Assembly (NCBI RefSeq): GCF_000003815.2
Contig: NC_049997.1
Location: forward strand, 4,615,893 to 4,679,892
Source: Branchiostoma floridae
Lineage: Eukaryota; Chordata; Leptocardii; Amphioxiformes; Branchiostomatidae
DNA: 64,000 nucleotides
Direction of reading: 5' to 3'
The notes below the pieces were generated by a model that had not been told where the DNA came from, ran no database searches, and saw nothing but the letters and a program-made list of their open reading frames with translations. Each line of letters starts with the position of its first letter. Position 1 is the stretch's first letter. Of this stretch, positions 35,801 through 54,538 are shown one piece after another. The position numbers were made by a program, and so were the translations under genes.

Positions 35801-38800
35801 CTACTTTAATCTACATTACTCTACTCAACTTTATTGCACTCTACTCAACTTTATTCTGCAACACCTTATTCGACTAAACTATTCTATAATCTACTGCATG
35901 CACTCTACTCTACGCATCACTCCATCTTTACGGTATCCACTAAGCTTGTGAAAATTCCCCAATGAAAACTAATTGCAGTTATTTCCAGTAAATGAGTTCG
36001 CTTTGAAGCTGGTTGTTTTTTCTCTTTGTTATTTAGCCGTGTTGCAGGCGGCTTCAGCAGTTATCGACGTGTTACCTAACCAGGAAACACAGACTGAAAG
36101 TTCCTCAGACAATATGTTAGAAAGTGATCTTATCGACACAAGTGCCACTGATCTTTCCCCAAGGCAACAGCTTAAGGAGTTGAAAAGGGAGGAGAAGGAG
36201 AAGGAAGACATGGTAATGACAGATGTCAAATCGTGTAATAAACATGAATTCCGATATTGTATTAAGCCATTGCACCAAATTATGTTTCCCGAAGGGGAAC
36301 ATCTTGTTTACATGTCTTTAGTTATTACAATATGTTCGGTAATTCAAACAACATTTTATTCTAACGTTTTATCTACTTCTTTCGAAACAAGGAACGAAAA
36401 GCGTCCCAGTCTATCGTGGCATCTTTGGACCAGGTTGCAGAAACTCTTCTGGCGTTACAGCCTGAGGATGCCGAGTATCACTCAAGCTTTAAAACTGAAA
36501 GTATCGCTGTTGATGTGGGGAGACTTCCTTCTGACAAAGATGTCCATCTTCACTCAGGAGATATTTTGGCAAATATTCCTTCCACAAATCAGTCTAAAAC
36601 AAACTCTATGCTGGATGTCAAGGTAAGAAAGACTCATCCAAGTCACAGTCAGTGCTTTCTGCCATTCTTGTAGTATCTACCAGAGTACTAACTGTTTAAC
36701 AAATGATGTTTGACATTTTATATCATCAGAATGAACAAATTGTTTTGTGTTTTACAGATGTCAGTTTTTAAGAAGAACCCGTATTCCTGGAGTAAGTCGA
36801 CTGGAGGACAAAACATCTCGTCATCAGTGACACTTCTGTCCATAAACTCAAAGGAGTCTGGAAACAGCACAAAGCAAGAAGTAAAGCTGGATATGCCATT
36901 CATACCGTTTCAAGCGAGTGGTAAGCAAGACAGCAGGCCATCAGACGATACGACAGAAAGCCCTAGTACGGAGGAAGATCCTACCAACGGCACTACTATG
37001 GCGTACCACGCCTTCGATGTTACAGCCGACAACGTCATCCCTGTTGTTAGTATGAACTGGTGGGATATAGAAGCTACATTTCACGTCTACATCTCTTACG
37101 GATATCCCCCGACAGAAGAAAAGTATGGCCAGAAAATAGTTATTAAGGAAGACGGGTATGAGGCCTGGCTCAGGGGAACAAATTTCTCTACATCCTTCAT
37201 TCCCAACACGACTGACCATAGCGGAGTTCTGTTTGTAGGAGTACAGAAGTTAGGTGCGTTGTTTATCTTCACAAATCATACGTTATCTTTTTTGTCCGTT
37301 TTTTCCACAATCGTAGCCACGTGAAGCCACGATAAGACCCTGGTATATATGTATAATTTTCAGAGCCGGTGAACTCAGCCCACGGTCATCAACAACAGCC
37401 TACTGTGCAGGCACTGAGAAAGAGGGACTACATACTGTCAATGCTATCTGTAGGCTGTTCGTCTTGGAAGGACAGTAAGAAACAATGGAGCCTGGAGTAC
37501 TGTGGCGTAAGTCAATCTAATTAACTTTATAAATTGTTGTAAATGTTCTTATACTAAACTAGTCCCTCGACCTCTGACCTGGCTGACACGGAACAAAGTA
37601 GAAAGTTGACTTAGTTGGCCAGTTGTTGCCAGGCGTTCAAATGAAGACCATAAAACTGCCCTAAGATAAAGTATTTTTTTTAGTCTTAGTCGTCACTTTT
37701 TTGCCTGCTCCTTATCAGATACTTGATGTACTATCTGTTGTCACCAGAGGGGTTAGCATGCATGTTGCAATTGCTTTCATACGAAGTACATCATTGAAAT
37801 AATCTAGCATATACGTTCAAGAACACATTGGAACAAGTTCTGTGAATGGCATCCTAAAAAAAAGACTGTAGAAGAAATTTGGAATTCACTTCATTAGCTA
37901 ATCATGTCATAATGTTTTTTCATTAACTCTTAAGTAGTTCCAGAAAAAGCTACCATGACAAAAGGAGAGATTACTTGAGGACGCAGGTATATTGTTTATA
38001 TTGTTAGCATTAGAAACGTAACAGAGATTTCTACCGCAAGTTTTTTCATCGTTTAACTTTGCTACCACATCAGGCTGACATTGATATGGACAATGGAGCC
38101 ATCAGCTGCCGATGTCACATGACTGAGGGGAAGGTCTCTGTGGGGACCATGACTCTTCCTCTTCCCAACTCCATCAACTTCATCAACGCTTTCAGGAACT
38201 TCCGCAATCTGAGCGAAAACTCAGTAGTGTTCTCCATCGTGGTGTCCGAGTACATCCTGTACATCTTACTCATGGTTTTCCTGTGCGTGGACTTTCACAG
38301 ACTATGGGTAAGCGTAAAGTTGATTGATCCTTAAACTTCAGAAGTTTAATGGTAACCGTGCTTTTCCCGTTGAAACGTCATCTTTCTCAAAACACTAAAC
38401 CAAGTCGTTCAAGGAATCAAAAATGTGACGAACAAATACACCAGATTGCCGCGATTGAACTTCCAGTTCATTTAGGGTTCATTTTGTTGCATCTTTTGAT
38501 TAATGTTAGTTTTGTTTATATTTATGGCGTTAAATAAAAGCAACTTCATGTAGATGACTACGTTATGGGTTTTTCATCTATCCTTAGAGTGCTCGTCGAA
38601 TAATCCCCATCTCTGGAGAGTGTGGAGGAGCGAACAGCAATGGGAAGCCTCTGTCCAAAGTGAGTCTGGTTCCTCCAGACAGGATGCCTGCACCACACGT
38701 CTATCAGATCACGGTCACCACCGGGTCCATGTTCAGCGCAGGGACCACGTCACGTGTCGGCTTCCAACTGTACGGGTCAGAGGGCACATCTCCAGTCAAG

Positions 38801-41800
38801 ATGCTGAACCCGGAAGGAGAGGTCGGTGTTGGTGATATGTGTAATCAGTGTTCAGAATTTTCTTTAACCGGAATATCTATATACCCATAATACTGAATTC
38901 CTACTTCAAAGACATTTATTTTTTTTTGTTCATGTTTAATTTGTTTCCAAAATAATGACCACCAAGAAATCATTGATGGTCTATTGCTTATGTGCCATAT
39001 CTACTCAACAGTACACACTAGTCAAATAGTCTTTTTTATGGTTGGCATATAAAGGCCAACAACAAAATACGTTTTTAGAATGGAAATATAGTTATCATTA
39101 CTTGGATATATAGTTGTCATTAGGCAACACAACCTTTAAGTTGCTTTGGTCCTCGTGTATATTAGTTGTGACATTGTAAGAATACAAATACAACAAGAGG
39201 GGGGGGCAATAGGAAAGTTAACGAAAAATGCTTTTTTCAGAATTTAGCAAAACAAAAGTATGAGAAAGTACAAAACAAGAGTGTTATAAGATAATCATAT
39301 CCAGCAAAAACATATGAAATAATCATATGCACAGAAACATTATGAAATAATATCAACAATCAGACTTTGAAATATTCATATGAAAATGAACACAAATGAA
39401 CTGAACAGGAACGTATGAAATAATTATAACAGAAACATATGAAATTAAATCATATCAAAGGAAATCTATGAAATAAAAAAATGCCTTTTTTTGTCATTTA
39501 CTGTTGGTAATTGCAGGCATTGGTGCGAGGAAGTACTTTGCACTTTGTCATGCCCGTACGAGAGTCACTTGGAGAAGTGATGTTGTTGCACATCTGGCAC
39601 GATAACTCTGGGGAAGGCGACAATTCATCGTGGTTCCTCGGAAGTTTTGTCGTCAGAGATGTAGAGAAGGATGTGGTGTAAGACGCAAAGGACATTTGCA
39701 AACCGATCTCTTTGTCCAAATTAATTCTGCCAGTTGTTTCTTTCCTACTCTGCAGCACTATGATACTCAATTTCGTCTCGTCTCGGCATGTGTGGTTTGG
39801 GAGAATGCAAAATGCCTTGCAAGATGGTCTCAATTAGCTCATTCCAATTTGAACAGGAACGCGAGTGAACTTGACTAAATGTTCATGAATAAAGACAATT
39901 GGCATGTTCGCTTTTTCATCTACTTCTTTATTGATATGACCGAATGATTGATATGTCTCCATGTCATAGGGAAATCTAGCATGATCGAAAACAAAACAAA
40001 AAATACAATTGTACTTAACTAAATCAACCCCTTTGGTTACTTTTCAGGTGTTACTTGACTTGTAACGACTGGTTATCAACAGAAAAGGGGGATGGCGAGG
40101 TGCAGAAGGTTGTTCACGCTAGCACCGAGGAGGAGCTGACATCCTTTACCAATGTCTTCATTGAGGCAACCAGAGATGTGTTCTACGATAAACAGCTGTG
40201 GGCGTCTGCCCTTGTAGCAACTCCGGGTCAGTATGGTTTTTATGAAATGTAGATATATAGACATATTTTAATGAAATGATAAAAAGAAATCAGCTCTCGC
40301 GTGCACGATTGCTCAATACATTTTGTAGTAAAACAGTTGCACAATTAAAAAGGTGACAAATAGTTTTTTTTTTTTTTACATTTTGCTCGGAGTAGGATCC
40401 AGCTTCACCAAAGCCCAGCGTCTGTCCTGCTGCTTTACCCTCCTGAACACCATGATGCTGGCCAGTGCCATGTGGTACAGGCAAGAAAACACAACTGCTG
40501 ACACAAGGGTGTTCAACCTGGGTTTCGTCCGGTTCACCATACAGGTAATGTTCATCACTTAATCGTTCGTTACTGTGAACCATCGTCATCAAAGGTGATT
40601 ATGTCATCATAATTAAGTACCTTGTTGTAGATTTATCAAACGTTGTTGTAGATTAAATAAAATCAATTGATAAACAAAAGTATTAATTCACTATGTGTGT
40701 CTATCATTATCCAAATGTTTACCGGAGCTGTACCTTAGTCTCATGACTGCTCTGACCGTACTTCCCGTGANNNNNNNNNNNNNNNNNNNNNNNNNNNNNN
40801 NNNNNNNNNNNNNNNNNNNNNNNNNNNNNNNNNNNNNNNNNNNNNNNNNNNNNNNNNNNNNNNNNNNNNNCAAAATTGTAGTTTAGATGTGGGAATCTCT
40901 CGTGCATTATGTATGCCCTTGATGTCATTTTAATTACTAGGATGTTAAGTTTTACTCTATACAACTATTTTTTTTGATTTGGGTAATTAGTTGTTGCCAT
41001 ACTTTGATCCATGTACAATTGTCGTGCAATAAAGTTCTTTTCTTTTTAGGGATGTCTCATAAACGATTGTATGTGCCAGAATACTAGTATGTGATCTTAC
41101 CTAAAGAATATCCAGACTTGTCTAATGTACAACATTAGGTCATTAAATAAAAGCCTTGTGACTTGTTTAAGATTGACATTTATCTGTAGTACAGTAGAAG
41201 CCAGTTAATTGCACACCGGATAATCGCACACTTCTGTTAATTGCACGAAATCCCAAATCCCATGGTGGTGCGGTCCAGCTGTATAACTTCGCTTTGTTGC
41301 ACCATTCGGATAATTGCACGAAATATACTGGCAAATGGGGTGTGCAATTAAGCGGCTTCCACCGTATCATAAGTTTTCAATCATTTATGTTGAACCTCAG
41401 GATATTTTCGGAAATGTGTCTTCCGCGTGGCCAAGTACGTGGCGTGGTTGACCGTGTTCCTGGTGTCCACCAGCTCCGCGTTCTTCGTCATCCTGTACAG
41501 TATGGACTGGGGCAAGGAGAAGAGCGACTCCTGGATGAAGGCCTTTATAATGTCCTTCATGGGTTCCAGCTGTGTGGTGGACACTCTTCAGGTGACGTGA
41601 CTTATAGTTATATCTCACTGCACTAGGGGCACCGTTGTGGCACTGCGGGGTTTGTTCACTGCGGCACTAGTACTGTTGTGTTATTTTCGCCGATTTTTTT
41701 TATAATGCAACAAAATACAAAAAAAAACGTTAGAAAATTAGTTCTTTATCTCTAAAAGTCGTAGCGTATCCTTCGAACCCTGCAGTGCCGCACCGATTAC

Positions 41801-44800
41801 CCAAGTGCAGTGAGATACCACTTTTCTTATCAAAAATACAGTATTGTCAATTCTTCATACAAGCTTTCTTTGATAAACTATTCAATCTTGTATCCACGAC
41901 ATATTCTCTACAGAGTATTGGCCAACTCAAAGCACTGCGAAGGCCATTGTAAGTGATAGGAATGTATAAAGTGTGTAAATGAGATATTGGAAACAGTATC
42001 AGCATTTGAACTTAAAGTGCTTAAATTGGTAAAGATTACAGTGGCACTTGATTTTTAAAAAACGTGAATCTGCACAGATTTTGGCTTTTAAGTAATACGA
42101 TAGGTTAAGGTTGTAAATTTAAGGAATGAAATTATACCAAATTAACGAACATGGCGGTCAATCGGTTATTATCAAATCAATCGGTTATTATTTTGAGGCC
42201 TGCAAAACCCACAAAGATTTCCAAACGTTAACTGACGAAAACAAAACTTTAACCCTATTAACGTCACATAACCCACTTATTAAAGAAATTTGAATTAAAT
42301 TAAATCACATTAAGAGTGGGTCACTTCGTCTTTTGCTGCTTCAAGAAAAGAAGTCAAACCCCAAATGTTTAGATTGTAGCTCTTAGCTCACTAGAAAAGC
42401 CTCTTGTTTCTAGATATCACCATACCAAAGTCTTTTTAATTTTCAGTATGTTTGCCATTTATTCTGTATGTTAAATGTTGCAATTATCCCACGGGCAAGA
42501 ACTTGCAAATAAAATTTCTGTTGAAATCTATTCCATATAGATCTTTGTGCTTGCTGTGGTCATGGCGTCCATCTTTAGTCTCCAGTTCCTCGCCAAGCCG
42601 CCGACTATTCGGAAGGAAGACCTGCAGCTGGACCTGTGGAACTCAACAGGTTTGAAGTCTCCATTGTCGTCTAGTTCCTTTGGGTAGAGCCATAGTCTGT
42701 ATGGACTGACTGACAAATGTTGTTTATACCTCAGGGTTCTCCCCAGAATTTTTTAGTATAGTGGAGGGGCTGGCAAAAATAACCCGCACCAACGCGCTGC
42801 ACTTTCATGAAAATGGGTTCATTTTGCAATGACAGAGGGTGTCAAATACTACAAGTATAATATACTGTTGTTTTTCCTTTGTTGTGAAGTGGCAAAACTA
42901 CTATTGTTTTGATCATTGCTCATTCACAAGTTATGGCAGACAATGCTGACTGGAAAAGTGATGCCACTTGGTACAAAAATCTGTGAATTGTCATTAATCT
43001 TAGCAAAACTAACAAAGAAAATAGGGAAGAAACACACTAAATTTGAAAAATAGTATAGTGGAGCTAGCTGAGAGTATAGTGGAGGGCCTCCCTTATTCCA
43101 CTCTCTGGGGAGAACCCTGCACCTCTGGCGCTTTTAAACGTCTTTACTTTCCGATAATTGTATCTACTTTCTGTCCCTATGGTATCTTTCCCTTAACCTT
43201 TTTTCGCTTCAACAATTAATAATTCTGTACAATATACGAACACAAAGTAAATATTACGATATCGCACAGATACGACGATTGGCGCGGTCAACGCAATTCA
43301 GAATTGTGTCTGAAAGATAGATTTACATGAAGACTTTATTTGAAATCATTTCCAAACTTCAAAAATCTTAAAATTTATCTTTAACGCGCGCACTCAATCT
43401 TTCACATTGTTGAACTAGTTCAACTGTAATATACAACACAAAAATTGGACAAATTTTTGACTGTACAGCACCAGTCTTTGTCAAAGAATGAACTATCCAC
43501 TACTGTCGTGACGTCACGTTATGTAAATAGAACACTGGCTCAGTAAGCAGTGGATCATAGGTTGCAGGAAGTCTGTGTCTATGTCTTTCACGTTGTTGCC
43601 TAATCTTGCCTTTCACGTCCTAGCACCAAAGAAAGTCTACCCACCCACTAAGCCTAATATGCAGTCTGCTAGGAGGAAGAAGCTGAGTGAGAAGTCAGCC
43701 TCGGTACTGAAGGAGTTTCTTCTTCTGTTCATCTTCGTGGTCCTCCTCTTCTACATCGCCCAGGTGGACAAAGACCAACATGCCTTTTACGAGACACAGA
43801 CATTGTCTCGCAATATTCTGCAAGAATATGACGCGGTAAGCAAAGGCAAACTTGGAGTTGTGTAGTGCAATTTATTCATGAAACATTGTAACATGCATCA
43901 CAATCATCACCAAGAAAACGAAACGCTATATAATGGAATTGGACCAAGATACAATTACAAGATTCATATTGTAGCAAGGAATCAAAAGTATTCAACTTTG
44001 TAACCAGCTCTTAGTTTGACAATTACAATAAGTATTTTTAATACTTTTTAAGATACAGGCATAAAAAATAGAAATAAACCTTTTATGGTTTGGCAAAACT
44101 CTGAACATGCATGACACATTACATGTTAAGCTCAAGTGATATATGCTGTGGAACTGCAAATGTATAATGATGCTCCCCCATCTTCCAATCTACATATGAT
44201 TCCATGTGCTTCTGAATCCTTGTTCCCGGCAATTTTACGTTCACACCGGGCGCTGCAACCCAACTGCAACCTGAACTGACCAGACCAGGGCGTGAATTCT
44301 ATTGTCTTGTAAGACAGAAGGATGCTAACAAATAGTATCTATTTACCCAAACGTAGTCATACATCCTAATAGTAATGTTTCATGTGTTGATGGTAATTTA
44401 AAATTTACCTACAGATCAGAACTCCGGACCAGTTTTACGTGTGGGCTGAGGACGTCCTGCTGTGGACTCTTTACCCGGCTACCTGGTACAACGGAAGGGA
44501 CATGAAGTACTTAGACCGGCAGTTTGCACACAACACGGGATCCTTCCGCCTCGGTCCTCCACGTCTGACTCAAGTTCGACATCTTCCAGGTACGTCTTGA
44601 GAAGTTTACCTGTTCTTCAGCCTTAAAGCAAATATGTTTCTTTCTTTACATTATTTTGATTTGACTCTATGGATGACATCCTTGCATATTTTCTTCGTTT
44701 CCCAAAAAAACAAAATAGATTTAGCACTTAATAGATCTTCGTACAAAGCAGCTGCAAAAGGGGAAGGATGTATGCCTTGATCTGAAACAAAAATCACAAG

Positions 44801-47800
44801 ACAGATACTAAAGTCGTAGAATGATGAAGTAAATTTAGATATATCAGAGAGGAAAATGCAACTACCACTAACGAAGAATCTGTTGTTCGTCATACCAAAT
44901 CAACATGGCCTTACTGGACATTTCCAATGACCACTAAAATCTAGTACATATATTAACAATATCATATGTTATTCCATGCAGATGCCATGGCACGGAATGC
45001 TATTCATGACCTCGGCTGGAACTTGGACTTGGGGAATGTTTCTGGTAACTGCTGGCGATTCGAGGTTAAGGACTTGTTAGCTCGTACAAACGACACCTTC
45101 CACTGCAAGAATCACCACTCGTTTGACGTGCCTTTAGGCCATGACTCCGCCGTGTCATTCTTTGGCATCTTGAGACAAAACGAGTTTATCGACAAGTACA
45201 CAAAATCCGTGACAATCTCAGTAAACGTCTACAATCCCAGCCGTAAGCTGTTCAGCACTGTGAAAATGGTCATAGACCGTTCTGGAGTCGGGCATCTCGT
45301 GCCAACGGCAACAATCGCTTCATTCAGACTGTTTCAGTACGAAAGTGATACTGACTTTGTGACCTTGTTCATGCACATTTTATTTGCATTGCTGTTCTTC
45401 CTTATGCTATATAACGAAATCAAAGCAATGAGAAACATGGGATGGAAATGCTTCACTTGTAAATGGAACGCCCTCGGTTGCGTTAGCCTCATCGGCACAG
45501 CAACAGCCATCTCCATCTTTATCAAGCGGTATGTGGTGGCATCTGAAACACTCGGAATCGTCGCTGGAAGTAAAGGTACGTCCGCCATGTCGCTACTTAT
45601 TTGATAAGATTATTGTTTTTGTTTTTTTTTACGAATGCAAACAAGACGCCTTTAACCCGCATTATTATATAGCCAGGCGCCGCTGACCAATCAGAAGGCC
45701 GCCAATTCCATGTTGGTTATGACGCTGTAACACATAGATTCCGTCCAGCCCGGTGTGTATCGTTTCTTCTGATTGGTCAGAAGTTGCATCGACACACAGC
45801 TTCGCTCACTCGGTGGTTTTATTCGGTGGTTATAGCAAAGGCCCAGGCGTTATGACACCATATACACCTCAGGGCGGATCATTAACCCTGCCCTTAATTG
45901 AAGACAATTTTTTGGTATAATACACAATCATCCATATGACACAATGCTTTACTTTTCTTTTATCGACCAGGTGAGATGGGATTTGGGCGCTTTGTTGACC
46001 TGCAAATTGCTGCATATTGGGATGATTGTTTGAAGCACATCTTGGGTCTTGTAGTCTTCATCAACACCGTGTCCTTACTTCGCGTCGTCCGCTTTAGTCA
46101 AACGATCGGCAAACTCCTGGCCCTGCCCGGTATCATGAAGGGAGAGCTGATGTCTTTCTTGGTTGTTGCTGCCGTAGCCTTTACGGCCTTCGTAAGTTCA
46201 GGTAAGTACTACAAAATCATAGCGTAGTGTATTGTAACTTTGGTGCATTGTACAATACTCGATGCTGACAACTTATTTGTCCATTGCTGGTTTCAGGACA
46301 TCTCATATTTGGCAGCCAAATGGCATCTTATACAGACCTGCAACACACAACTTTGGCACTGTTCGAGATGATGCTCGGCAGGTTAGTTTTACAAAGCAGT
46401 GTGTAATGATCTTAAATGTGAACCATAAAGTATCGTATGGCGCAATCGGTGAGGTGTTTGACCCAGACCCAAGAGGTAACGGGTTCGAAACCGCTGATTT
46501 GTCCCGATGTTGTGTCCTTGGATAAGGCACTTTACACGGCTTTCCTCGCTTCACTAAAGTGAAAATGAGTACCTAGCTAGGCTTCCTTGAATAGGACGTT
46601 AAATGGAGGTCCCGTATTTGAGAAGAGCCACACCTCGAGCAGTTATAGAACCCACCTCACTTATCGAAAAGAGTAGGGGTCCTTCCCGGTGTGAGTGGTT
46701 CAATCCTACAGTCTTATGGTTGCACTTGGGGCAATTACTGTCGTATTAAGGTCACCTGTGTGGCGCCGTATGGCAGCTCGCTCCAGACATAGCCCCGCAT
46801 AATGCAAGCTCCTTGCAATTCAGCCCCTGGTTGTCAAGAGAGAGTAGTCGGCGCACCCTGTACCCAATAACATTATGTTTTAGCAAGTAGTCAAGAACGT
46901 TATCTCATTGCTTGTTGTTATGACTCTAGATTCTTCGCCGAAGACATGTTGGATTCCAATCCTCTGATCGGGCCGATCTTCTTCTCCACCTTCATGATCT
47001 GCATCTTCATCCTCCTGGTGAACTTCCTCATGACCATCATCTGTGACGCCATTTCCGCTGACGTTGACGTCAACCATGACCGTGAACTTGCCGATCACAT
47101 GTGGAGGAGCTTCTGGGCTATGCTGGGGTTTCACAGCACACCGGATAAGGAGGATAAACCAGGTAAATCAAGCAAAAGTACATGAGTAGTTATTACATCG
47201 CCTTTCTGTCTCCGACATTAATACAACTATGTGGATACACTAAAAGATAAACGGAACAAGACAACCGGTGTAATGGTTAATTTGCTGTTCAACATTGTAT
47301 AGCATATAATGCTACTAAATATGCTTCGCGAATAAATATTTATATTTCTGTTATGGTTGGGCAGTAATTATGTTCAAATGATAATAAAATCAACGGTTTT
47401 TAATGTTTTCTTTTGTTTTGTTTGTGAAGATGTTTTGAAGATGGAAGAGGTGAAGGCAAAAATATGCATCATTCGGAAGAAGCTAGATGAAGGTCTGGAC
47501 ATTTGCAACTCCATCCTGCCTCCACATCGACAGGAAAAACACCCGAAGAGCCAAGACGTGCCCAGCTTCTTGCACCTTGACCCTTGTAACACGTCTTGCC
47601 AAATCATTCGCGAAGAACGTAAGTTAGCAACGATTGTCGAAGAAAATCAAGATACCACCAAAGGCATGGAGGTCGCTCGACCACCAGTTGATGCTAACGT
47701 AAATACAGCGGATGTAAGGATGCGGACCAAGCGAATTGAGGGCATCATTTCAAGGGTAGATCGCGTTACAGCCAAACACAGTGATCAGAAGGTGCCTCGG

Positions 47801-48526
47801 CCTATTCTGGTTGCAACAGCTCCACGTGAGAAGCAAACTCTGACATCTGCCACACATGCTGGTGAACGGCTGCAGCAATCTTCACGGAACATGTGGATCC
47901 CCGATCTAAAGCTTACCACTGAAGACAAGGCTGTACTCCTTTGTGATGAGATGCTGACAGACAAACACATCCATGCCGCACAGATGTTACTCCGCCGTCA
48001 GTATCCAGGGCTGGGAGGACTACAAGATACGGCAGTAGGAGCGTCCGTGTACGGATATACACGGGTCTCCGGAGACGGTCTACAGATTCACCACACCGGA
48101 TCCCTCCACTGGGTGGTTTCATCCTCCATAGGTGGACATGTCAGCCTTTATAACAGCATGCCCGGTAAATTAAATGCATCGCTGGAGTATCAGTTGTGTC
48201 AGTGTTACGCGCCACCCCCCAACATGGGCACAGGCGTACTGACTGTGAAAGTACCATGTGTACAGCAGCAGGATAGCAGGTATAGCTGCGGACTGTTTGG
48301 CATAGCCTGGGCTGTAGACATCGCGATGGGGACGGATGTGACTCAGGTCAGGTACAAGGAGAGCAGGATGAGAGTCCATCTCCGGGACTGCTTCGAACGC
48401 GGTCACCTGTCTCCCTTCCCACAGTCCCTTTCTTTCACCAGTCTGCGACCCAGTACCGTTCACCGGATTACTCTAACTTCAGCCGCTACCGGTAAACATG
48501 CCGATTCAAAAAGCCTGCAGGACTGA
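13384..48526 (+). CDS. Giant polycystin-1-like receptor-channel with lectin ectodomain and C48-like C-terminus
   Basis: Polycystin-1-family (PKD1L) membrane protein. These proteins pair large adhesive ectodomains with a self-cleaving GAIN/GPS, 11 membrane segments and a cytosolic PLAT domain. Exons (ends by eye): 13384-13576, 14594-14829, 15601-15873, 15998-16270, 19328-19600, 19728-20000, 20557-20717, 21015-21164, 21501-21645, 21916-22130, 22735-23140, 23609-23919, 25017-25161, 26837-27121, 28352-28624, 29358-29630, 29811-30164, 30611-30746, 31160-31284, 32639-32764, 33052-33141, 33432-33488, 33637-33692, 34527-34667, 34990-35080, 36037-36212, 36392-36622, 36758-37253, 37364-37506, 38074-38307, 38588-~38821, 39517-39677, 40048-40226, 40396-40544, one in the gap, 41401-41591, 42541-42649, 43624-43835, 44415-44589, 44982-45575, 45971-46201, 46297-46381, 46930-47162, 47430-48526. 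Every visible junction keeps frame. The first exon is uncertain, and no clear signal peptide was found. Confidence 0.88.
13690..14045. mobile_element. Nested fold-back element around (TA)n and (GA)n tracts
   Basis: About 13693-13766 (GTTCCCCCAAGTTTTCAACC...GCATAATGAGC...ATGCTGTAGGTT) is repeated inverted at 13866-13945, flanking a (TA)n tract at 13766-13821. A second hairpin follows: CATTTGTTTTCCAATA, then (TA)n at 13957-13988 and (GA)n at 13988-14026, then the inverse ATTGGAAAACAAATG (about 14026-14041). It lies in the intron splitting the F-lectin exons. Structure and lack of ORF suggest a fold-back/MITE-type element; the slippage-prone cores may vary between haplotypes. Confidence 0.65.
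15003..15235 (+). mobile_element. tRNA-derived SINE-like element
   Basis: TGGCGTAATCGGCAGCGCGT resembles a tRNA A box and GGGTTTGAATCC a B box, spaced as in a pol III promoter. The body has AAAGGCACTTTACACGACTT followed by TCCTCACTTGACTCA and GAGTATCTAGCTGC, ending near GTTAAATGACGAAAAA. A relative with the same order is at 46434-46880. It is in the intron after the F-lectin exons. It is not a functional tRNA, since the 3' half does not close a cloverleaf. Confidence 0.7.
15601..16270 (+). CDS. FN3 pair, cassette copy 1
   Basis: Two exons (15601-15873, 15998-16270), each one fibronectin type III domain and each entered and left in phase 1. The first has ITISWIKPSAPLSGYRVNYT and NYSVTLVAVGMY. 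The second has ETSVTVSWQKR, VWIRRSDFAESLF and LTPGTEYVISASS. Several N-x-T/S glycosylation sites are present. The pair recurs at 19328-20000 and 28352-29630. Against copy 2 the first domain differs at only about three residues, so the duplication or a gene-conversion event is recent. Confidence 0.88.
16400..17095. other. GC-rich inserted block between FN3 cassettes
   Basis: Up to about 16400 the intron matches the corresponding intron after cassette copy 2 (20140-20215). The match then breaks at GAAAACGCAGACTCC, and a C-rich segment begins (16420-16640), followed by ordinary sequence that leads directly into repeat copy B at 17096. The block is thus inserted relative to the sister cassette. 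No protein family, tRNA or rRNA is recognised in it. The 276-codon frame running through it is an extension of the FN3 exon and ends in unrelated sequence. Confidence 0.5.
17096..18030 (+). repeat. ~935-bp interspersed repeat, copy B
   Basis: Direct-orientation near-identical copy of 11762-12707, sharing the TATAAAAA-like box (about 17463) and all landmarks. It differs by small indels, for example a shortened segment around CGATTCAAGAGGAGG and an added CAT near 17878. Homology starts at TACACGGAACAAATTC and stops after CATTAATTATGCAA. Copies A and B are 5.3 kb apart and bracket the F-lectin exons and the first FN3 pair. Confidence 0.75.
18100..18510 (-). repeat. Dispersed repeat with (CA)n and GGGGGCC words
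   Basis: Contains GAGTTATC twice, CTAGGGGGCCAAAAC, GGAAGTTGCGCTGCAGTACC, a (CA)n tract (18411-18455) and finally CCATGACATTTCATGG. The same elements appear in inverse order and strand at 27130-27560, and relatives lie at 58636-59000 and 63040-63290. This marks a multi-copy lancelet repeat family. No coding potential is seen. Confidence 0.65.
19328..20000 (+). CDS. FN3 pair, cassette copy 2
   Basis: Exons 19328-19600 and 19728-20000, the second occurrence of the two-FN3 cassette, again phase 1 in and out. Residues match copy 1 except for a handful, for example STATSTS for STATYTS and SEVTTTEF for SNVTTTEF. Flanking intron sequence is also shared: upstream TTTAGACTATATAGCGGTAA matches the start of copy 3 near 28208. 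The exon joins in frame to the discoidin exon at 20557. Confidence 0.88.
20249..20520 (+). pseudogene. Relic of the exon that follows FN3 cassette 3
   Basis: After cassette 2, TTTTTCAGGTCTTTATAACCC leads to CATGGATGATGCAAAACGAA, matching the functional exon at 29811 (CCGTACTCATGGATGATGCAAAACATAG). Later words ATAACACAATGTATCC and TTCAGAAATGG (20476-20515) match its continuation. An unrelated segment (about 20310-20465) splits it, and the frame meets TGA after about 20 codons. This shows that the duplicated unit once included a third exon. It also fits splicing passing from 20000 directly to 20557. Confidence 0.6.
20557..21645 (+). CDS. Discoidin (F5/8 type C) domain 1, three exons
   Basis: Exons 20557-20717, 21015-21164 and 21501-21645. 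The translation has CNNRFGMESGDIPDESITAS, ARLNGG, PWLQVYLGG, VKSYKLQYSADGIGWTTYED, FPGNTNAGTPV, RYVRFYPQ and MRVEILGC. This is the full order of a discoidin/coagulation factor C domain including both boundary cysteines. Such domains bind lipids, collagen or glycans. The set starts and ends in phase 1, so it is a removable cassette. Confidence 0.92.
21916..23140 (+). CDS. Pentraxin domain, two exons
   Basis: Exons 21916-22130 and 22735-23140. The translation shows RLIFPTPRHTGNYARL, SSYTLCLRVRTDMSYG, LWHSLCVTWRGNNGSWQLYA, GGTWILGQDQDTVGGGF, FSGELSHVNLWDRVLSPSEI and an ending VAIYGLVSK. This follows the pentraxin fold including the HxCxT/S-like signature region (HSLCVTW) and the ILGQDQD Ca2+-site strand. 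Both edges are phase 1. Flanked by two discoidin domains, it makes a lectin-like triad. Confidence 0.92.
22305..22455 (+). repeat. Two palindromic GAGCAACCTCCA...GTTGCTC units
   Basis: CTGCACGAGCAACCTCCATG..CTCCTCCATGGGGTTGCTCCTG (about 22309-22360) and CTGTACGAGCAACCTCCACA..CTCCTCCATGGACGTTGCTCGTACAAC (about 22405-22451) are direct copies. Each is itself an imperfect hairpin (GAGCAAC/GTTGCTC). They sit in the intron splitting the pentraxin exons. Function is unknown; they are likely transposon-related. Confidence 0.55.
23609..25161 (+). CDS. Discoidin (F5/8 type C) domain 2, two exons
   Basis: Exons 23609-23919 and 25017-25161. The sequence reads CTSPVALGMESGAIADDHIT, RLNNGWSW, QWLQIDLGSQKVLTSIQTQG, VKSYKLLYSDYG, then DTVVEQNLHTPVTTRYVRIN and RLRVELLGC. 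It is a complete discoidin domain, closer to the classic pattern than domain 1, with phase 1 edges. The acceptor at 23607-23608 (CCAAG) is weak in pyrimidines and was chosen because it restores frame and the first cysteine. Confidence 0.9.
25200..25445 (+). mobile_element. 5S rRNA-derived SINE-like element
   Basis: The first ~105 bp follow 5S rRNA: CACCCGATCCCTGATATCGG, AAGTTAAGCAA, GTACTTGGATGGTAG and CGGGTTGTTGTAGCC, including the internal pol III promoter region. A non-5S body follows (GGACGTAAAACGGGGATCCCGTGCTCGAGG, then TTACTCATTGGGTACC). Related GGACGTTAAATGGAGGTCCCGT words occur inside the tRNA-type SINE at 46600. The 5S part has several mismatches to a working 5S gene, so this is a 5S-headed retroposon or pseudogene, not an rRNA gene. 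Confidence 0.7.
25652..26064. mobile_element. 413-bp MITE with long terminal inverted repeats and GATA target duplication
   Basis: The ends AACAGGCGACAGTATAATTC and GAAATTATACTGTCGCCTGTT are inverted copies. The inverted match continues in blocks through TTCCGGAAAACCTTAAT, AGATAAACCAGATGAA and TTTGTAGGTATGATATATCA to the centre, so the whole element can fold. GATA directly flanks both ends (25648-25651, 26065-26068), consistent with a 4-bp target site duplication. No ORF. It lies in the intron between discoidin 2 and the next FN3 exon. Confidence 0.85.
26837..27121 (+). CDS. FN3 domain, single exon
   Basis: VIPQFPAENVTCSSET then FSLHWLYPSGYLSGYRIWYQ, followed by CRYNVTVRNVVS and a final IECITG, a single fibronectin III-like domain. 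It is phase 1 at both ends, with four N-x-T/S sites. It is distinct in sequence from the duplicated cassette domains but shares the C...C spacing of cassette domain 1 (TCS at the start, CIT/CLT at the end). Confidence 0.85.
27124..28010 (+). repeat. Dispersed repeat family member with octamer-rich tail
   Basis: Begins with CATGAAATGTCATGGAGGTT, then GTCTGTGTGTCTGTCTG, GATAACTCAAGAACGGCTGA, GGGGGGCCCCAAGAGGC and AGCGCAACTTCCGG. This is the inverse of 18100-18510 and akin to 58636-59000. The following part repeatedly carries ATGCAAAT/ATTTGCAT words (27559, 27848, 27867, 27975), as in 59060-59580. No protein is encoded. Confidence 0.6.
28352..29630 (+). CDS. FN3 pair, cassette copy 3
   Basis: Exons 28352-28624 and 29358-29630, the third occurrence of the two-FN3 cassette. 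Domain 1 is nearly the same as copies 1 and 2 (SWIKPNATLSGYRV, EYSVTLVAVGMYQD). Domain 2 has drifted more (SLALHHRVWIRRSDTAESLF, LTFIDLTPGTEYVIS). The intron between the two exons is longer than in copies 1 and 2 and contains a dispersed repeat (29030-29170). Phase 1 at both edges. Confidence 0.88.
29811..31284 (+). CDS. Two more FN3 domains (three exons)
   Basis: Exon 29811-30164 gives a linker (WMMQNIAFYINSVKY) and an FN3 domain (TSTITISWTPPQAVLIAYNI, LTGLVPGTLYDIDLVAVS). Exons 30611-30746 and 31160-31284 together give another FN3 domain (PPSLRVTNSSTTSLFLEWTP, VTGLVPETTYVIKMGAFSEH), split by a phase 2 intron inside the domain, unlike the cassette domains. The 8-bp satellite at 30172-30464 begins only 8 bp after the donor at 30165. 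Confidence 0.88.
30172..30464 (+). repeat. Perfect 8-bp satellite (ATTTTAAT)n
   Basis: About 36 uninterrupted copies of an 8-bp unit (TATTTTAA in any phase), without visible substitutions. It sits in an intron directly after a splice donor. Perfection at this length means recent expansion, high polymorphism or an assembly-trimmed array. Confidence 0.97.
31329..31640 (+). repeat. Short interspersed repeat, copy 2 (see 1411-1715)
   Basis: Inverse-strand relative of 1411-1715, beginning TTTTCTGAGCCAGGTTGCAC and ending GTGGGTATTTTGCACTCTGG. The same internal landmarks appear in reverse order. It lies in the intron after the last FN3 exon. The open frames here are fortuitous. Confidence 0.6.
31757..32183. 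mobile_element. Fold-back element with ~45-bp inverted ends
   Basis: The left end CCCCTTCACACGAGAATGAA followed by CCGGAATTCCGTCAGAAT is matched in inverse at 32137-32183 (ATTCTGACGGCATTCCGGCTCATTCC...CATGTGACGGGG). Between them are further AGAATG/CATTCT words. The element is about 425 bp long without coding capacity. Related words (GTGTGAAGGCC and GGCCTTCACACAAGG) at 32264-32330 suggest a second broken element alongside. Confidence 0.65.
32639..33692 (+). CDS. Thr/Ser-rich mucin-like stalk exons
   Basis: Four small exons (32639-32764, 33052-33141, 33432-33488, 33637-33692) encode TVTTSHTTTEASTTDRRTTT, STLWTTTESPTT, TTSSQSTTAY, STGKSTKPP and KSTTTPKRTTEDPG. This is a low-complexity, probably heavily O-glycosylated stalk lifting the lectin/FN3 array from the GAIN domain. 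Frame is kept through all four. Without splicing, the first exon would hit a stop at 32801. Small repetitive exons like these are often alternatively spliced. Confidence 0.75.
33831..34520 (+). repeat. 41-bp minisatellite, ~17 copies
   Basis: Unit TACTTCATTACTGATGCTTC followed by ATTTCCTGGAATCCTTCAAAG, 41 bp, about 17 copies with scattered variants (for example ACTCAAGC for ACTGATGC, and CAATTCCTGAAATCATT forms that recur in alternation). It occupies the intron between exons 33637-33692 and 34527-34667. The last unit supplies the acceptor TTCATAG used by the 34527 exon, so array changes could touch splicing. Confidence 0.95.
34527..36622 (+). CDS. Membrane-proximal linker exons (GAIN N-terminal part)
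   Basis: Exons 34527-34667, 34990-35080, 36037-36212 and 36392-36622. The translation is helical and acidic: LQQLAQGLEESLPEVLEPED, IIEKLASAAKG, AVLQAASAVIDVL, LKELKREEKEKEDM and ASLDQVAETLLALQPED. Similar alpha-helical repeats precede the GAIN beta-subdomain in polycystin-1-like and adhesion-GPCR proteins. The acceptor at 34988-34989 (GGACAG) rather than the later CTGCAG keeps the frame. Confidence 0.75.
35225..35900 (+). repeat. (CTCTA/CTCTG)n pentanucleotide array
   Basis: About 670 bp of TACTC/TGCTC pentamers, degenerate at both ends, in the intron between 35080 and 36037. The array keeps two long frames open (about 200 codons of Leu/Tyr/Ser), which are artefacts of the repeat. The complementary theme, GAATA pentamers, occurs at 61895-62060 in a TPH intron. 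Confidence 0.95.
36758..38307 (+). CDS. GAIN/GPS autoproteolysis domain and first membrane segment
   Basis: Exons 36758-37253, 37364-37506 and 38074-38307. After a Ser/Thr-rich lead come FHVYISYGYPPTEEKYGQ and GVLFVGVQKL (GAIN strands). The GPS box follows: CSSWKDSKKQW, EYCG, ISCRCHMT, with the four cysteines and paired tryptophans of the family. Cleavage is expected in HMT (usual HLT/HLS). TM1 is VVFSIVVSEYILYILLMVFL, ending at the VDFHRLW typical before PLAT. The Met in place of Leu at the cut site is tolerated in some family members, so autoproteolysis is likely but not certain. Confidence 0.9.
38588..39677 (+). CDS. PLAT/LH2 domain (first cytosolic loop)
   Basis: Exons 38588 to about 38821 and 39517-39677. 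The translation has YQITVTTGSMFSAGTTSRVG, FQLYGSEGTSPVKML, then LHFVMPVRESLGEVMLLHIW, HDNSGEG and SSWFLGSFVVRDVEKDV, the standard PLAT order of polycystin-1 proteins. PLAT binds lipids and partners under the membrane. The donor after the first exon is not a clean consensus (GTCGGT at 38822), so that edge may move by a few codons. The second exon ends GT/GTAAG at 39677. Confidence 0.9.
40048..40544 (+). CDS. Polycystin-1-like post-PLAT region and TM2
   Basis: Exons 40048-40226 and 40396-40544: CYLTCNDWLSTEKGDGEVQK (the CNDWL box after PLAT), then FTKAQRLSCCFTLLNTMMLA and SAMWYR (TM2). The next exon should begin with the segment that follows FVRFTIQ and include TM3. It falls in or beside the N gap: 40544 ends in phase 0, whereas the next visible exon (41401) needs one base from a missing exon. 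Confidence 0.9.
40771..40870. other. Assembly gap (100 N) hiding one polycystin exon
   Basis: A gap of unknown true size. Reading-frame phases on either side (0 on the left, +1 needed on the right) and the missing third membrane segment both call for one exon of length 3n+1 here. Confidence 0.9.
41192..41364. mobile_element. Tigger/pogo-type MITE with TA target duplication
   Basis: The left end CAGTAGAAGCCAGTTAATTG followed by CACACC is matched inverted by GGTGTGCAATTAAGCGGCTTCCACCG at the right end. TA flanks both ends (41190-41191, 41365-41366). The internal TTAATTGCACGAAAT words and a TA duplication are typical of short pogo/Tigger derivatives. The element is 173 bp, without an ORF, in the intron just before exon 41401. 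Confidence 0.85.
41401..47162 (+). CDS. Polycystin channel region, TM4-TM11
   Basis: Exons 41401-41591 (TM4, YVAWLTVFLVSTSSAFFVIL), 42541-42649 (TM5), 43624-43835 (TM6, EFLLLFIFVVLLFYIAQ), 44415-44589 and 44982-45575 (extracellular TOP/polycystin domain with WYNG, RLGPPRLTQVR and DLGWN; then TM7 LFMHILFALLFFLMLYNEI and TM8), 45971-46201 (TM9, S4-like VSLLRVVRFSQT; TM10), 46297-46381 (pore helix, FEMMLGR) and 46930-47162 (TM11, FMICIFILLVNFLMTIICDA). Where PKD2 channels have LGD, this reads LGR, so it resembles the PKD1 side, which is thought to act with a PKD2 partner. Exons join in frame throughout. Confidence 0.9.
42310..42520 (+). repeat. Dispersed element ending GCAATTATCCCACGGGCAAGAACTTGC
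   Basis: Same landmark order as 7922-8140 (GGTCACTTCGTCTTTTGCTGC, AAAGAAGTCAAAC, then CAATTATCCCACGGGCAAGA, ACTTGCAAATAAA). It ends 20 bp before the acceptor of exon 42541, so the element contributes the branch-point region of that intron. Confidence 0.5.
42732..43119. mobile_element. hAT-like MITE (CAGGGTTCTCCCCAGA ends)
   Basis: A perfect 16-bp inverted end, CAGGGTTCTCCCCAGA at 42732 and TCTGGGGAGAACCCTG at 43104-43119, plus sub-terminal ATAGTGGAGGGGC and TATAGTGGAGGGCC motifs. The CAGGGTTCTCCCCAG terminus is common among hAT elements. It is 388 bp without a transposase. No convincing 8-bp target duplication was seen. It lies in the intron between exons 42649 and 43624. Confidence 0.85.
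45650..45905. repeat. Partial relative of the 940-bp repeat, after a duplicated CAAT-like block
   Basis: TTATTCGGTGGTTATAGCAAAG, CACCATATACACCTCAGGGC and TTAACCCTGCCC match the right part of repeats 11762-12707 and 17096-18030. Upstream, GACCAATCAGAAG (45688) and its inverse CTTCTGATTGGTC (45766) form an inverted pair around AACACATAGATTCCG. It is in the intron between exons 45575 and 45971. Confidence 0.5.
46434..46880 (+). mobile_element. tRNA-derived SINE-like element 2
   Basis: TATGGCGCAATCGGTGAGG (A-box-like) and GGGTTCGAAACC (B-box-like), followed by AAGGCACTTTACACGGCTTT, TCCTCGCTTCACT and GAGTACCTAGCTAGG. The body then has GGACGTTAAATGGAGGTCCC and a long GC-richer tail. Same family as 15003-15235; its body also shares words with the 5S-headed element at 25200. 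It occupies most of the intron between pore exon 46381 and exon 46930. Confidence 0.7.
47430..48526 (+). CDS. C-terminal exon: coiled coil plus Ulp1/SENP-like (C48) peptidase domain
   Basis: One 1.1-kb exon. The donor CCA-G/GTAAAT at 47162 and acceptor GTGAAG/ATG at 47429 keep frame (G+AT). Residues 1-30 form an amphipathic helix (MEEVKAKICIIRKKLDEGLD), as in polycystin-1 tails. After a charged, Pro-rich linker (about residues 30-190) comes a C48-like fold: HTGSLHWVVSSSIGG (His, 48107), VSLYNSM (Asn at 48152 where Ulp1 has Asp), VQQQDSRYSCGLFGIAWAVD (Gln, then Cys at 48287), RVHLRDCFERG and PFPQS. His-to-Asn spacing is 15 residues and Asn-to-Cys 45, close to Ulp1 (17 and 49). The frame is open to TGA at 48524. 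An ATG at 47441 means an independent short gene is the main alternative. Activity against ubiquitin-like proteins is unknown. Confidence 0.75.
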
Positions 48527-50779: not shown

Positions 50780-52140
50780 AGACCGTCAACAAAAGTCGCA
50801 CGGCGGCTAACGGCGCATCGAAGATACTAGCGCTATAAATAAGTGCTTCAACTAAGGATGGCAACCCGTACAATATTTTTGCATACTGTTGAGCTAAGTA
50901 AAGTTTGTTGTTTATGAGGTTTTAGTTGTCTTTGAAGCTTTGACCCGAAATATTTTAAAGTCAAACTGCTGAAGAGAAGTAAGTGACTGCTACGATTATC
51001 GTAGATATGGCCCTAAAAAAACTGATAAAAGAAGCCTTCTCAATAGTCTAAAATGCAAGAGCTTCCGGGGGGGCTTCGCCCACCTGGGTCCCCCCCACAG
51101 TGGCCCTGCCCCTGGACCCCGCCAGGGACATTCGGCGGCCCCGGACCCCTGTCCGACGCTTTGAAAAAATCCTGGCGAGAAGTCTGTACGGCCTGAGTCT
51201 TCAAGTTAACGTATTGTGTGGTCCCGCTTATGAATATTAATTAGCCTTCGCTTTCCTCTTCGCTGATTGGCTGAACCATTAATTGAATTAACTCTTCCTG
51301 CCGGCTAGACGCAGGTGCAGATGTCGGCTCTGTGGGGTGAACGTCCGAAAGGTCATGGCATGCATGGAGAACGAAAGAAAACCAATTTCCCCTAAAAAAA
51401 GTGCTGTAATTAAGCCTTTTACAGTACTTTATGCCAAAAATTTTACTTGGATCATTTTACCAACTATCTTATGCCTATCTATACCAAATGTTACTCATAC
51501 CAGGGTACAGGGGTGCAAAATATACCGTTATAAGACCGTCAACAACAGTCGCACGGAGCTAACAGCGCAGCGAAAATACCATCGCTAGCGTTTCAACTTC
51601 GGATAACAAGTTATAAGTACTGTTGAACTCAGTAACGTTAAAGTTTGTTTTTAGTTGCCTTTGACGATTTGACCTGAAATAGTGTTACGCTAAACTCCTG
51701 AAGAGAAGTTAAGTGACTGCTGCGATTATCATAGATATGCCCCTAAGAACTTATACAATATAAAGCCTTCTGAATAGTGTAAAATGCGAGAGCCTTAGGC
51801 GGGCTTCGCTCCCCCTGGCGGGAACACTGCTATATACGGGATCATGAGGCCCCGCTTATGAATATTAATTAGCCTTTGGCCTCCTCTTCGCTGATTGGCT
51901 AGGTCTTTGATTCAATTAACTCTCCGGCTGGCGCGCACAGGTGTGGCTCTGTGCGGGGTCACGGAAGGTCACGTCAGGAGGCCAAAAGAAAACACATTTC
52001 CCCTCAGAAAAGTTCCAAAATTAATCATTTTAAGGTTGTTTATGTCAAAAATTTTACTTGAATCTTGTTACCAAGTATCTAATGCCTATCTATACCAAAT
52101 TTCAGGTCATTTAATTGTAATACCAGGGTACAGGAGCCAA
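50780..52140 (+). repeat. Two tandem copies of a ~720-bp unit
   Basis: Unit 1 starts at about 50780 (AGACCGTCAACAAAAGTCGC), unit 2 at about 51530 (AGACCGTCAACAACAGTCGC). Both then share AAGTGACTGC..CGATTATC, AATGCAAGAGCTTCC/AATGCGAGAGCCTTAGG, GCTTATGAATATTAATTAGC, CTCTTCGCTGATTGGCT, CTCTGTG.GGGT and AAGTGTTCC/TTAAG words in the same order. Unit 1 is GC-richer in its middle. There is no protein. Probably a transposable element duplicated in tandem; copy 2 merges into the 162-bp array. Confidence 0.65.
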
Positions 52141-52650
52141 AAGTGTCCTTTTTTGGTCAAAAATTGGCCAAAAATCGCAAAAATAAGCATTTTGTTGCAC
52201 TGTACACCAAAAGTGTTATTGAATTTATATGAAGGTATTATCAAGGCACATCTGTGTCAAATTTCAGCTCATTCAGTTGCAATACCAAGGTACAGGAGCC
52301 AAAAGTGTCCTTTTTTGGTCAAAAATTGGTCAAAAAATCGCAAAAATAAGCATTTTGTTGTACTGTACACCAAAAGTGTTATTGAATTTATATGGGGGCA
52401 TTATCAAGGCACATCTCTGTCAAATTTCAGCTCATTTGGTTGTAATACCAGGGTACAGGGGCCAAAAGTGTCCTTTTTTGGTCAAAAATTGGTCAAAAAA
52501 TCGCAAAAATAAGCATTTTGTTGTACTGTACACCAAAAGTGTTATCGAATTTATATGGGGGCATTATCAAGGCACATCTCTGTCAAATTTCAGCTCATTT
52601 GGTTGTAATACCAGGGTACAGGGGCCAAAATATACAGTTTTGGTCTAAAA
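52120..52650 (+). repeat. ~162-bp tandem array, 3+ copies
   Basis: Each unit contains ATACCAGGGTACAGGAGCCA, AAAGTGTCCTTTTTTGGTCA, AAAATAAGCATTTTGTTG and a shared ACTGTACACCAAAAGTG. The first word recurs at about 52122, 52282, 52445 and 52607. Copies 2 and 3 are almost identical, and the unit keeps frames open, giving repetitive 139- and 205-codon ORFs that are not proteins. The tail (52740-52870) has GGTCCAGGAACGGCGGAG and a TATATTTCACCATACTATGT word. Confidence 0.85.
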
Positions 52651-54538
52651 TTGACCAAAAAATCTCAATAAAATCATTTTAGAGGCAGACATGAAAAAAC
52701 TGAGAAAAAAGCATCAAGGTATTGGCCCATTCTATCCCTGTGCCAAATTTCAGGTCATTCGGTCCAGGAACGGCGGAGATGAATCACTTTGAAGATTTGA
52801 CAGGAGAAAGAAAGAAGAAACATTACGAATACAATATATTTCACCATACTATGTATGGCTGAAATATAATAAAAATCGCCATTGTGCTTTACACTTTTGT
52901 ATTTAGTTTTGGTATTTAGTTTACCGCATTTAAGTCAACGTGTGTTTTGCTCTTGTAAAAAGTCAAGGTTTTTTGGTTGCCATAATTTATGGCAAATTTG
53001 ATATGTGTATACGTAACTTAACTTAGCTTAAAGTAATTTCATAATGTCAAAATCAAAAGCAGTTTGTAAGTTGTTTCTTGATTCAATAAAGTAATCGAAC
53101 TGATTTACATTCCTTATATGTTACTTTTAATTGGCGGAGTAATAATGTCAAAGTATACACAAGCATGCTTTATACATGTTTATACAAGAAAAAGGCAAAA
53201 AATAATTTTTACTTTCAATTCAGCCCTTGCTATATATACAATCATGCACCGTAAATTCGTATCATCTGCTATTCTCGCATAGGACTGTTTAGCCACAGTC
53301 GAGGCTGTAAGGCTGATATCAATTAGGATTTTACCATGGTCAATATTGACCAAAGGAGGCCATATATAGTCTATCGGTAAGCAAGAAAAGTGAATGATAT
53401 ATAAGTGATGCTCACATATACTTTTTATTGCCACAACACCACAGACTTCCCGTATTATTATTCCAAAAGGAAACGTTCTAAAAAGCAGCATATTTGATTT
53501 TTTTAACAGCCATACTATGTCTGAACATTGCGTCTGAAGTGACTTCTTTAGTTTGCCTTGGATGTGACTTAGTTTGTCTCGCATCCAGTCAATGTACTCG
53601 TTTAGTCAATGTACTCGTATGTGACCAAATAAAGATAGTAATACATTTGCGTATAAGACCCTTTTAAATCACTTTTAAGCAAGTTATCCATTCGGTCTCC
53701 TGAGCTATTTATGGAGGGAAATCTCATAAACATTTCTTTAGTAGTCACAAAGCTGGGCATGCCATACAGTTCTTGTGTCTAAATAGGAAGCCATAGTTTA
53801 GCGAATACTACACAACACTATCCTATATCTTGTCATGCCGTCAGCAAACGTAGTTATCTTATATATGGTTCAATGGTTTTTAAGTTTTCAAAAAAACCTA
53901 AAAGATTTTTGAACTATTGTGCCACGATTTACTTTAAACATTGTAATAGCGTCATATACGCATACATTCGCTCGCCGAGCAGTGTATGGCGTCTCGAAAA
54001 ATTCGTTGAAGTGAATTGTTCCAATATATATTCAATTTTCGTTTCAACTTAGCTGTTTCTTAGCTAAGTCTTACCAACACTAAGTCTCGCCAACACTGAC
54101 GAACTTTTAAGACGCTGTTGTCTTGTACAACTTTGTCACAATTTATACATTGCACTACCTTTCGCCTGCTATCATCACGAATAACCATAAGGTTCTATCA
54201 TATCAAGTCATACAAATACACAAACAGCGTACGTCTAAGTAATATATACACCGCCATACATAGGTGTGTCTCAATAAACAACTACAACAGAAGAATCATA
54301 TGTTATATGTTTTAGAATGACTATATATTTTAAATGAGTATAGATAACTACTTGTACTGCCCGTATACTCCCAATACTTAGAAACAGATAAATCTACTCT
54401 TTTTTTACACCAAAGTTTCCTTTCCAGAAAGAAGGCAACCTGTCATAGCTTTATAAGCTTGATACGTAACCTGTTTATACACGACAATAAATATGTTCTT
54501 TAATTGCGACTTCTGGCTCACAAAGTGACGTCATATCA

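Follow-up and report, generated by a model that had tools for sequence, protein, structure and literature searches.

The window, a stretch of 64,000 nucleotides of the Florida lancelet genome (C19:4615893-4679892), contains the 3' end of a polycystin-1-type gene on the plus strand; all features below lie on this strand. The first PLAT half falls in an ORF at 38588..38887 (Pfam PLAT, 3.7e-4) and a second PLAT part in an ORF at 39511..39678 (1.6e-4), both just under the cut-off; the PLAT domain of the polycystin-1 family is represented here by these two half matches, each a sub-cut-off fragment. Four channel exons with borders set by eye follow: 44415..44589 with the start of the polycystin (TOP) domain (Pfam Polycystin_dom, 0.0016), 44982..45575 with the remaining polycystin domain and the first channel helices (Polycystin_dom, 2e-7; PKD_channel, 9.7e-5), 45971..46201 (PKD_channel, 1.3e-6), and 46297..46381, which matches the same exon in three other channels of this genome (L041, L042 and L044). 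The last transmembrane (TM6) exon, 46930..47162, has a 3' phase of 1 and matches PKD_channel at 0.0011, under the cut-off. By Pfam, the ORFs of the window hold both the polycystin (TOP) domain and the PKD channel region of the polycystin-1 family.

Pentaxin, F5/8 type C and fn3 domains (Pfam) are matched by further ORFs upstream, which may belong to the same gene. No Pfam GPS match was found in the ORF at 38014-38331; the GPS-like motif read by eye is CRCHMT (HMT), and the GPS motif given in excerpts of a review is HL-T/S (PMC9672506). The window also includes a CTCTA-type microsatellite at 35210-35760 (probably intronic), a run of N at 40771-40870, and a region at 51895-52682 that looks like a tandem repeat, with three overlapping plus-strand ORFs encoding the same repeated peptide.

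The terminal exon and its protease-like domain

The TM6 exon is followed by a GT-AG intron (47163..47429) and a terminal coding exon (47430..48526) that contains a coil, a linker, a C48-like domain and the stop, and that is identified by its ORF, its phase match and its homologues (L002/L004 and L003). The donor, AACCAG/gtaaat at 47162, is in phase 1; the acceptor (gtttgtgaag) has its last base at 47429. Needing two bases, the exon at 47430-48526 reads through to a single stop at its end. A preliminary description of this DNA had proposed a donor at 47162 with an in-phase next exon, which is borne out by the phase 1 donor and the stop-free joined reading; the range it gave began at 47163, but the exon itself starts at 47430, because 47163-47429 is intron. 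Together, the TM6 exon (46930-47162) and the terminal exon make 443 codons including the final stop, without any internal stop. The 364-codon open run is longer than any seen in 2000 first-order shuffles of the exon, whose longest runs have a mean of 99 and a maximum of 251 (the shuffled exon was one base short, which is immaterial to the outcome).

The first part of the exon (47430..47656) encodes the C-terminal coil and tail of polycystins, which is common to channels that lack a C48 domain: in a tblastn search with the exon start, residues 2-34 match L041 and L042, and residues 3-75 match L044, all of them C48-less. It is followed by a fast-evolving linker (47657..47878; dN/dS of 0.67 for coil plus linker in comparison with L003), by the C48 (Ulp1/SENP-like) domain of about 180 residues (47879..48427), and by a short C-terminus (48428..48523) at the place where relatives run on into a PHD finger. 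The domain is delimited by an alignment of polycystin tails and transposase-like relatives (A5), by a profile search of PDB, and by a profile-profile comparison (hhalign, A6 vs A7).

The motifs reported earlier were all found again, LHWVV at 48104-48118, LYNS at 48146-48157 and VQQQ..SCGLF at 48260-48298. From the alignment, the putative catalytic His is at 48107..48109 (also aligned by the SENP1 profile), the putative oxyanion-hole Gln, six residues before the Cys, at 48269..48271, and the putative catalytic Cys at 48287..48289. His, Gln and Cys are thus present in the window type; the Asn (48152..48154) occupies the catalytic-Asp position, with N in three window-type rows and D in the other 33 of the 36 aligned rows. 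Activity may therefore be altered, and the His-Asn-Cys triad of the window copy suggests altered or reduced activity. Among 29 polycystin-type rows, 19 have H-D-Q-C, three H-N-Q-C (the window, L002 and L003), three H-D-Q-S, three H-D-Y-C and one L-D-Y-C; the MULE/YqaJ-type rows have H-D-Q-C in 7/7. The tails with Ser in place of the catalytic Cys are L016, L017 and L018 (C19:6.43-6.70 Mb).

Neither the window exon nor its domain alone has a Peptidase_C48 match in Pfam or a C48 match in PDB, and profiles were therefore built from paralogues: A6 from polycystin tails, A7 from MULE/YqaJ-type ORFs, and A5 from A6-type and MULE/YqaJ rows together. A6 and A7 align with an hhalign probability of 100 (E 5e-44), and two YqaJ-type members of A7 score above the Pfam Peptidase_C48 cut-off (L036, 3.2e-6; L038, 3e-9). 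In PDB, the A5 profile matches SENP1 (5.3e-6) and lines up with its His, Asp, Gln and Cys; 20 of its 22 PDB matches with E up to 1 are SENP, Ulp, ULP-domain proteases, OtDUB or RickCE (the remaining two are named 'Type III effector' and 'NopD'), and 14 of 21 A5 members match PF02902 at E up to 0.5. Without the MULE/YqaJ rows, nine of the 11 listed PDB matches of A6 are Ulp/SENP/OtDUB (E 0.05-1.3) and the other two are dynein-related chains; since A6 alone reaches only such values, the C48 assignment depends on the intermediate MULE/YqaJ rows. The nearest of the singly listed polycystin tails, L012, matches C48 at 0.0014 (19.0 bits, cut-off 20.7). Thus the profile check proposed earlier fails in Pfam on the window copy but succeeds through its relatives, through which the window domain can be assigned to C48 at the level of sequence. 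A single-sequence AlphaFold model of the window domain (pLDDT 33) is not interpretable, and a pattern-based search with a further alignment (A3) gave 67 viral-contig and 22 genome-contig matches, none of which was confirmed.

Polycystin genes with related tails in the same genome

A genome search with the window exon, in which only the best candidates are scored, gave at least 49 matches. They include the window itself, near copies of the whole exon (L002/L004 and L003), 26 loci with the domain (L005-L030; 45-52% identity), a split copy (L034), MULE-type ORFs (L031-L033 and L039), YqaJ-type or similar ORFs (L035-L038), coil-only matches (L041, L042 and L044), and fragments. A second genome search using the L012 tail as query found no additional intact locus. 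L003 is a full-length further copy of the window terminal exon. A near copy of the window terminal exons lies about 208 kb from them at L002/L004 (C19:4870087-4874171); its frame is broken by one base in the linker, and it may be a duplicate, a haplotype or an assembly effect. L019 has an internal stop. Partial second C48/PHD fragments were seen just downstream of intact tails at C9:2487880, C13:18712591, C13:20068467, C13:21161155 and C12:17111472-17112841.

A polycystin TM6 exon lies upstream on the same strand at 24 of the 26 loci L005-L030, and at 27 of the 30 loci of the domain clade (window locus counted); no polycystin exon was found near L022 and L027 (within about 7 kb) or L034 (within 4 kb). 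The acceptor phase is unchanged in L027, as though this copy had broken away from a fusion gene. The 24 larger-group loci share one layout, namely a TM6 exon, a coil exon and an exon with C48 and a PHD finger (the C48-PHD exon). The TM6 donor is in phase 1, the coil-exon acceptor needs two bases and the C48-exon acceptor needs one, each in 24/24 loci (a second candidate acceptor in L030 does not fit), and the coil-exon donor is in phase 2 in 23/24, the sequence of L016/L049 ending before the donor. The C48-PHD exons could not join the TM6 exon directly, as phases 1 and 1 clash; this objection is removed by the conserved coil exon that stands between them at 24/24 loci. At the window-type loci (window, L003 and L002), the TM6 donor is in phase 1 and the same acceptor is kept in 3/3.

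Eleven loci, the C13-type subgroup, have GT as the coil-exon donor. The donor that fits in the C5/C19 subgroup (data from 12 loci) is GC; at least 10 of these loci also have a phase-0 GT four bases downstream, whose use would misfit the usual acceptor. Confidence in the junction is accordingly highest for the C13-type and window-type genes. The apparent GC donor after the coil exon was seen in L017-L021, L023-L026, L028, L030 and L053, with the full GCAAGT in L023.

Linkage was also counted from the channel side. The window TM6 query gave 61 matches in the genome (itself included), of which 26 are followed on the same strand by a C48 match at a distance of 271-2081 bp; no other arrangement was seen within 5 kb. 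This count used all 61 TM6 matches and 40 of the 49 C48 matches, the nine dropped being three coil-only matches and six second pieces or fragments; the L012 TM6 exon was found only by a closer query, not by the window query. Two larger-group genes that were read farther upstream have Polycystin_dom matches of 8.6e-27 and 7.5e-27 plus channel matches, and one of them has a weak PLAT match too. The in-frame polycystin-C48 fusion put forward in the preliminary description is supported by the phase, by two more exon copies with the same acceptor and by 24 loci of the same layout. In the window gene, the in-phase join of polycystin and C48 is confirmed as far as sequence can do so, and many polycystin-type genes of this genome appear to be joined in frame to an Ulp1-like protease domain.

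By the Nei-Gojobori method, dN/dS within larger-group tails is 0.19-0.46 (eight chosen pairs). Between the window and L003 it is 0.35 for C48, 0.67 for coil plus linker, 0.66 for the entire exon and 0.21 for TM6. Between the window and L002 it is 0.73 for C48, at very low divergence, and undefined for TM6, with zero synonymous changes. These values point to constraint on the C48 part and to very little on the linker.

Tail forms and transposon-like relatives

The tails come in two forms. The larger group has a separate coil exon, then C48, then the PHD finger, whose C4HC3 zinc ligands are present at 23 of the 26 loci; Pfam PHD matches, all under the cut-off (best 3.1e-4), were obtained for five of six tails scanned (L012, L013, L020, L021 and L022, but not L005). 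The window type has coil and C48 within one exon, and no PHD finger or remnant of one was found in or downstream of the window exon. Window type and larger group are 44-54% identical in C48 and 29-44% in TM6. Between the two large subgroups, TM6 is 74-84% identical and C48-PHD 70-74%, TM6 being not less alike.

The 29 tails form one clade in the C48 tree (99/98) adjoining the MULE rows, with a warning of long branches from the program. The TM6 tree places the window type together with three C48-less channels, and only three of the 29 channels with a TM6 identity of at least 47% carry the tail, one of them frame-broken. These two observations make a single ancient fusion for all genes less likely. 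A second gain in the window lineage, by tail transfer or by a new capture, would be the simplest reading.

The closest other relatives of the tails, sampled in this genome only, are MULE-transposase-like ORFs (SWIM-C48-PHD), which have the same C48-PHD order as the polycystin tails. Upstream ORFs at L031 and L032 match PF21056, ZSWIM1-3 RNase-H-like (1.1e-13 and 4.1e-14), and PF10551, MULE (1.5e-6 and 1.1e-6); the one ORF tested upstream in L033 has no Pfam match. At L031 (3782-7337, minus strand) and L032 (1110-4759, plus strand), the MULE/ZSWIM-type RNase-H-like ORFs are followed by SWIM-C48-PHD ORFs. As the nearest other relatives are MULE-like, the C48 module probably came from a transposon. 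Excerpts of a survey report that MULE transposases were not found in the Florida lancelet (PMC6446971).

A candidate channel-enzyme fusion and its alternatives

We lean, with somewhat better than even confidence, towards a polycystin-1-type channel with a cytosolic coil and a C48 tail, a 'chanzyme' whose tail would be MULE-derived and act as a tethered deconjugase. A C48 module would have been captured from a MULE-transposase-like element and joined to one polycystin lineage, giving the C48-PHD form of about 24 genes, and it would have been joined separately, or by tail transfer, to the window lineage, which has no PHD. According to excerpts of a review, the vertebrate polycystin-1 coil binds polycystin-2, and cleavage of the tail can be followed by its entry into the nucleus (PMC9672506). 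Because of this binding in vertebrates, the tail would be expected to act at the channel complex or its neighbours, as a membrane-tethered deconjugase that removes a ubiquitin-like tag from the channel complex or nearby proteins; it might also be freed by tail cleavage. In a bolder version, which is tentative and could well be wrong, at least two captures by different polycystin-1 lineages of this animal brought in a transposon-derived Ulp1-type protease, mostly with a histone-reading PHD finger, and gave a large family of chanzymes. If this is true, such chanzymes could link channel or mechanosensory input to the stripping of SUMO-like tags from proteins, either at the membrane or, once the tail is cleaved, on chromatin.

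It is very improbable, in our estimation, that these are two neighbouring genes, with the polycystin ending upstream of 47430 and a C48 gene of its own starting near 47441. The ATG at 47441, which the preliminary description had left as a possible independent start, is retained in L002, but the codon is ATA (Ile) in L003, and in the coil exon of C48-less channels it is Ile in L042 and L044 and Met in L041; the coil itself is common to such channels. Most C48-PHD exons open with N-ATG straight after the acceptor, and L022, L027 and L034 have the domain with no polycystin exon within the distances given above, yet in L015 and L030 the C48 exon has no ATG at its start and its frame is still open. 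Strand, order and phases are alike at 24 loci on several contigs, and a chance-adjacent gene therefore hardly fits. Scarcely credible, and already disfavoured, is the idea that the tail is recent transposon debris, in frame by chance and functionless: transposase-like ORFs are indeed the closest other relatives in this genome and broken copies occur (the frame break in L002 and the internal stop in L019), but one clade of 29 tails, constraint and conserved splice phases are hard to square with it.

Loss of cleavage has to be taken more seriously, although we think it less likely than not. Here the tail would be a pseudoprotease that binds a ubiquitin-like modifier or a partner without cutting, the window type with Asn for Asp being such a case. 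Rows that depart from the canonical residues speak for it (three H-N-Q-C, three H-D-Q-S, and four H-D-Y-C or L-D-Y-C among 29), and constraint persists in the one Ser-type pair compared, L016/L017 (dN/dS 0.28), a hint that some members of the family have a non-catalytic role. Against it, canonical H-D-Q-C is kept in 19/29 polycystin-type and 7/7 MULE/YqaJ-type rows, the window type retains Cys, Gln and His, and papain-type proteases work with Asn in a Cys-His-Asn triad. We consider it unlikely that the tail is proteolytically released and mainly nuclear, with the PHD finger of the larger group reading histones in a TRPM6/7-like manner. The C4HC3 ligands in 23/26 larger-group tails and the sub-cut-off PHD matches in 5/6 of those scanned are consistent with such a role; excerpts of the literature also describe human polycystin-1 tail fragments that can reach the nucleus (PMC9672506) and TRPM7 and TRPM6 kinases that are freed from their channels and act on chromatin (PMC6515203). 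The window type, however, has no detected PHD finger, and its GPS-like motif reads HMT, with no Pfam GPS match. By analogy with these polycystin-1 and TRPM cases, a tethered deconjugase near the channel seems most likely, and release with nuclear action would be more plausible for the PHD-bearing group.

The window gene resembles the polycystin-1 family (PKD1, PKD1L1-3, PKDREJ) in the PLAT halves, the polycystin domain, the channel region and the coil after TM6, but in this gene and its relatives the coil is followed by a protease-type domain, in most copies with a PHD finger. To our knowledge, known members of the family end in a short regulatory tail. Motifs of the polycystin-1 tail are described in excerpts of PMC9672506. 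With peptidase C48 (Ulp1, SENP1/2/5/8, and the bacterial OtDUB and RickCE), the likeness lies in the profile match, in which His, Asp, Gln and Cys align with SENP1; the lancelet domain differs in being part of a membrane channel gene and, in the window type, in having Asn for Asp and no direct Pfam match. The MULE/ZSWIM-type ORFs (L031-L033 and L039) share the PHD finger directly after C48, and their C48 is 33-42% identical, but no RNase-H-like or SWIM part was seen in the polycystin tails scanned. Plant Kaonashi MULEs, as described in excerpts of PMC6117577, are Mutator-type elements with C48 domains; unlike the lancelet tails, these are plant transposon ORFs unjoined to a channel.

Channel-enzyme fusions are rare as far as we know, and the animal cases known to us are the TRPM chanzymes. 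TRPM2, TRPM6 and TRPM7 likewise combine a cation channel with a cytosolic enzyme tail, but their enzyme is a kinase or NUDT9, not a ubiquitin-like protease, and the channel family is another one; the TRPM6/7 kinases are cleaved from the channel according to excerpts of PMC6515203. Judged from its predicted parts, the lancelet gene would be a chanzyme-like variant of polycystin-1, TRPM6/7-like in concept, and the combination suggests a channel with a signalling enzyme of its own. Such a polycystin, with a ubiquitin-like-protease tail, would directly test the role of the cleavable polycystin-1 tail, because its tail domain has a definite biochemical activity to assay, and it would clearly exemplify the recruitment of transposon domains into membrane receptors.

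No polycystin-Ulp1/C48 fusion was named among the open-licence PMC papers listed, and a term search of the main text of PMC4284660 and PMC4967905 gave no mention of polycystin or Ulp1. Excerpts of PMC4967905 blame the high count of new domain combinations in lancelet on gene-prediction errors, and false fusions are known in lancelet gene models, e.g. a chordin wrongly joined to a PKD channel (excerpts of PMC6071037). Behind the proposed polycystin-C48 fusion, by contrast, stand exon phases, linkage and constraint seen at many loci and not just a single gene model.
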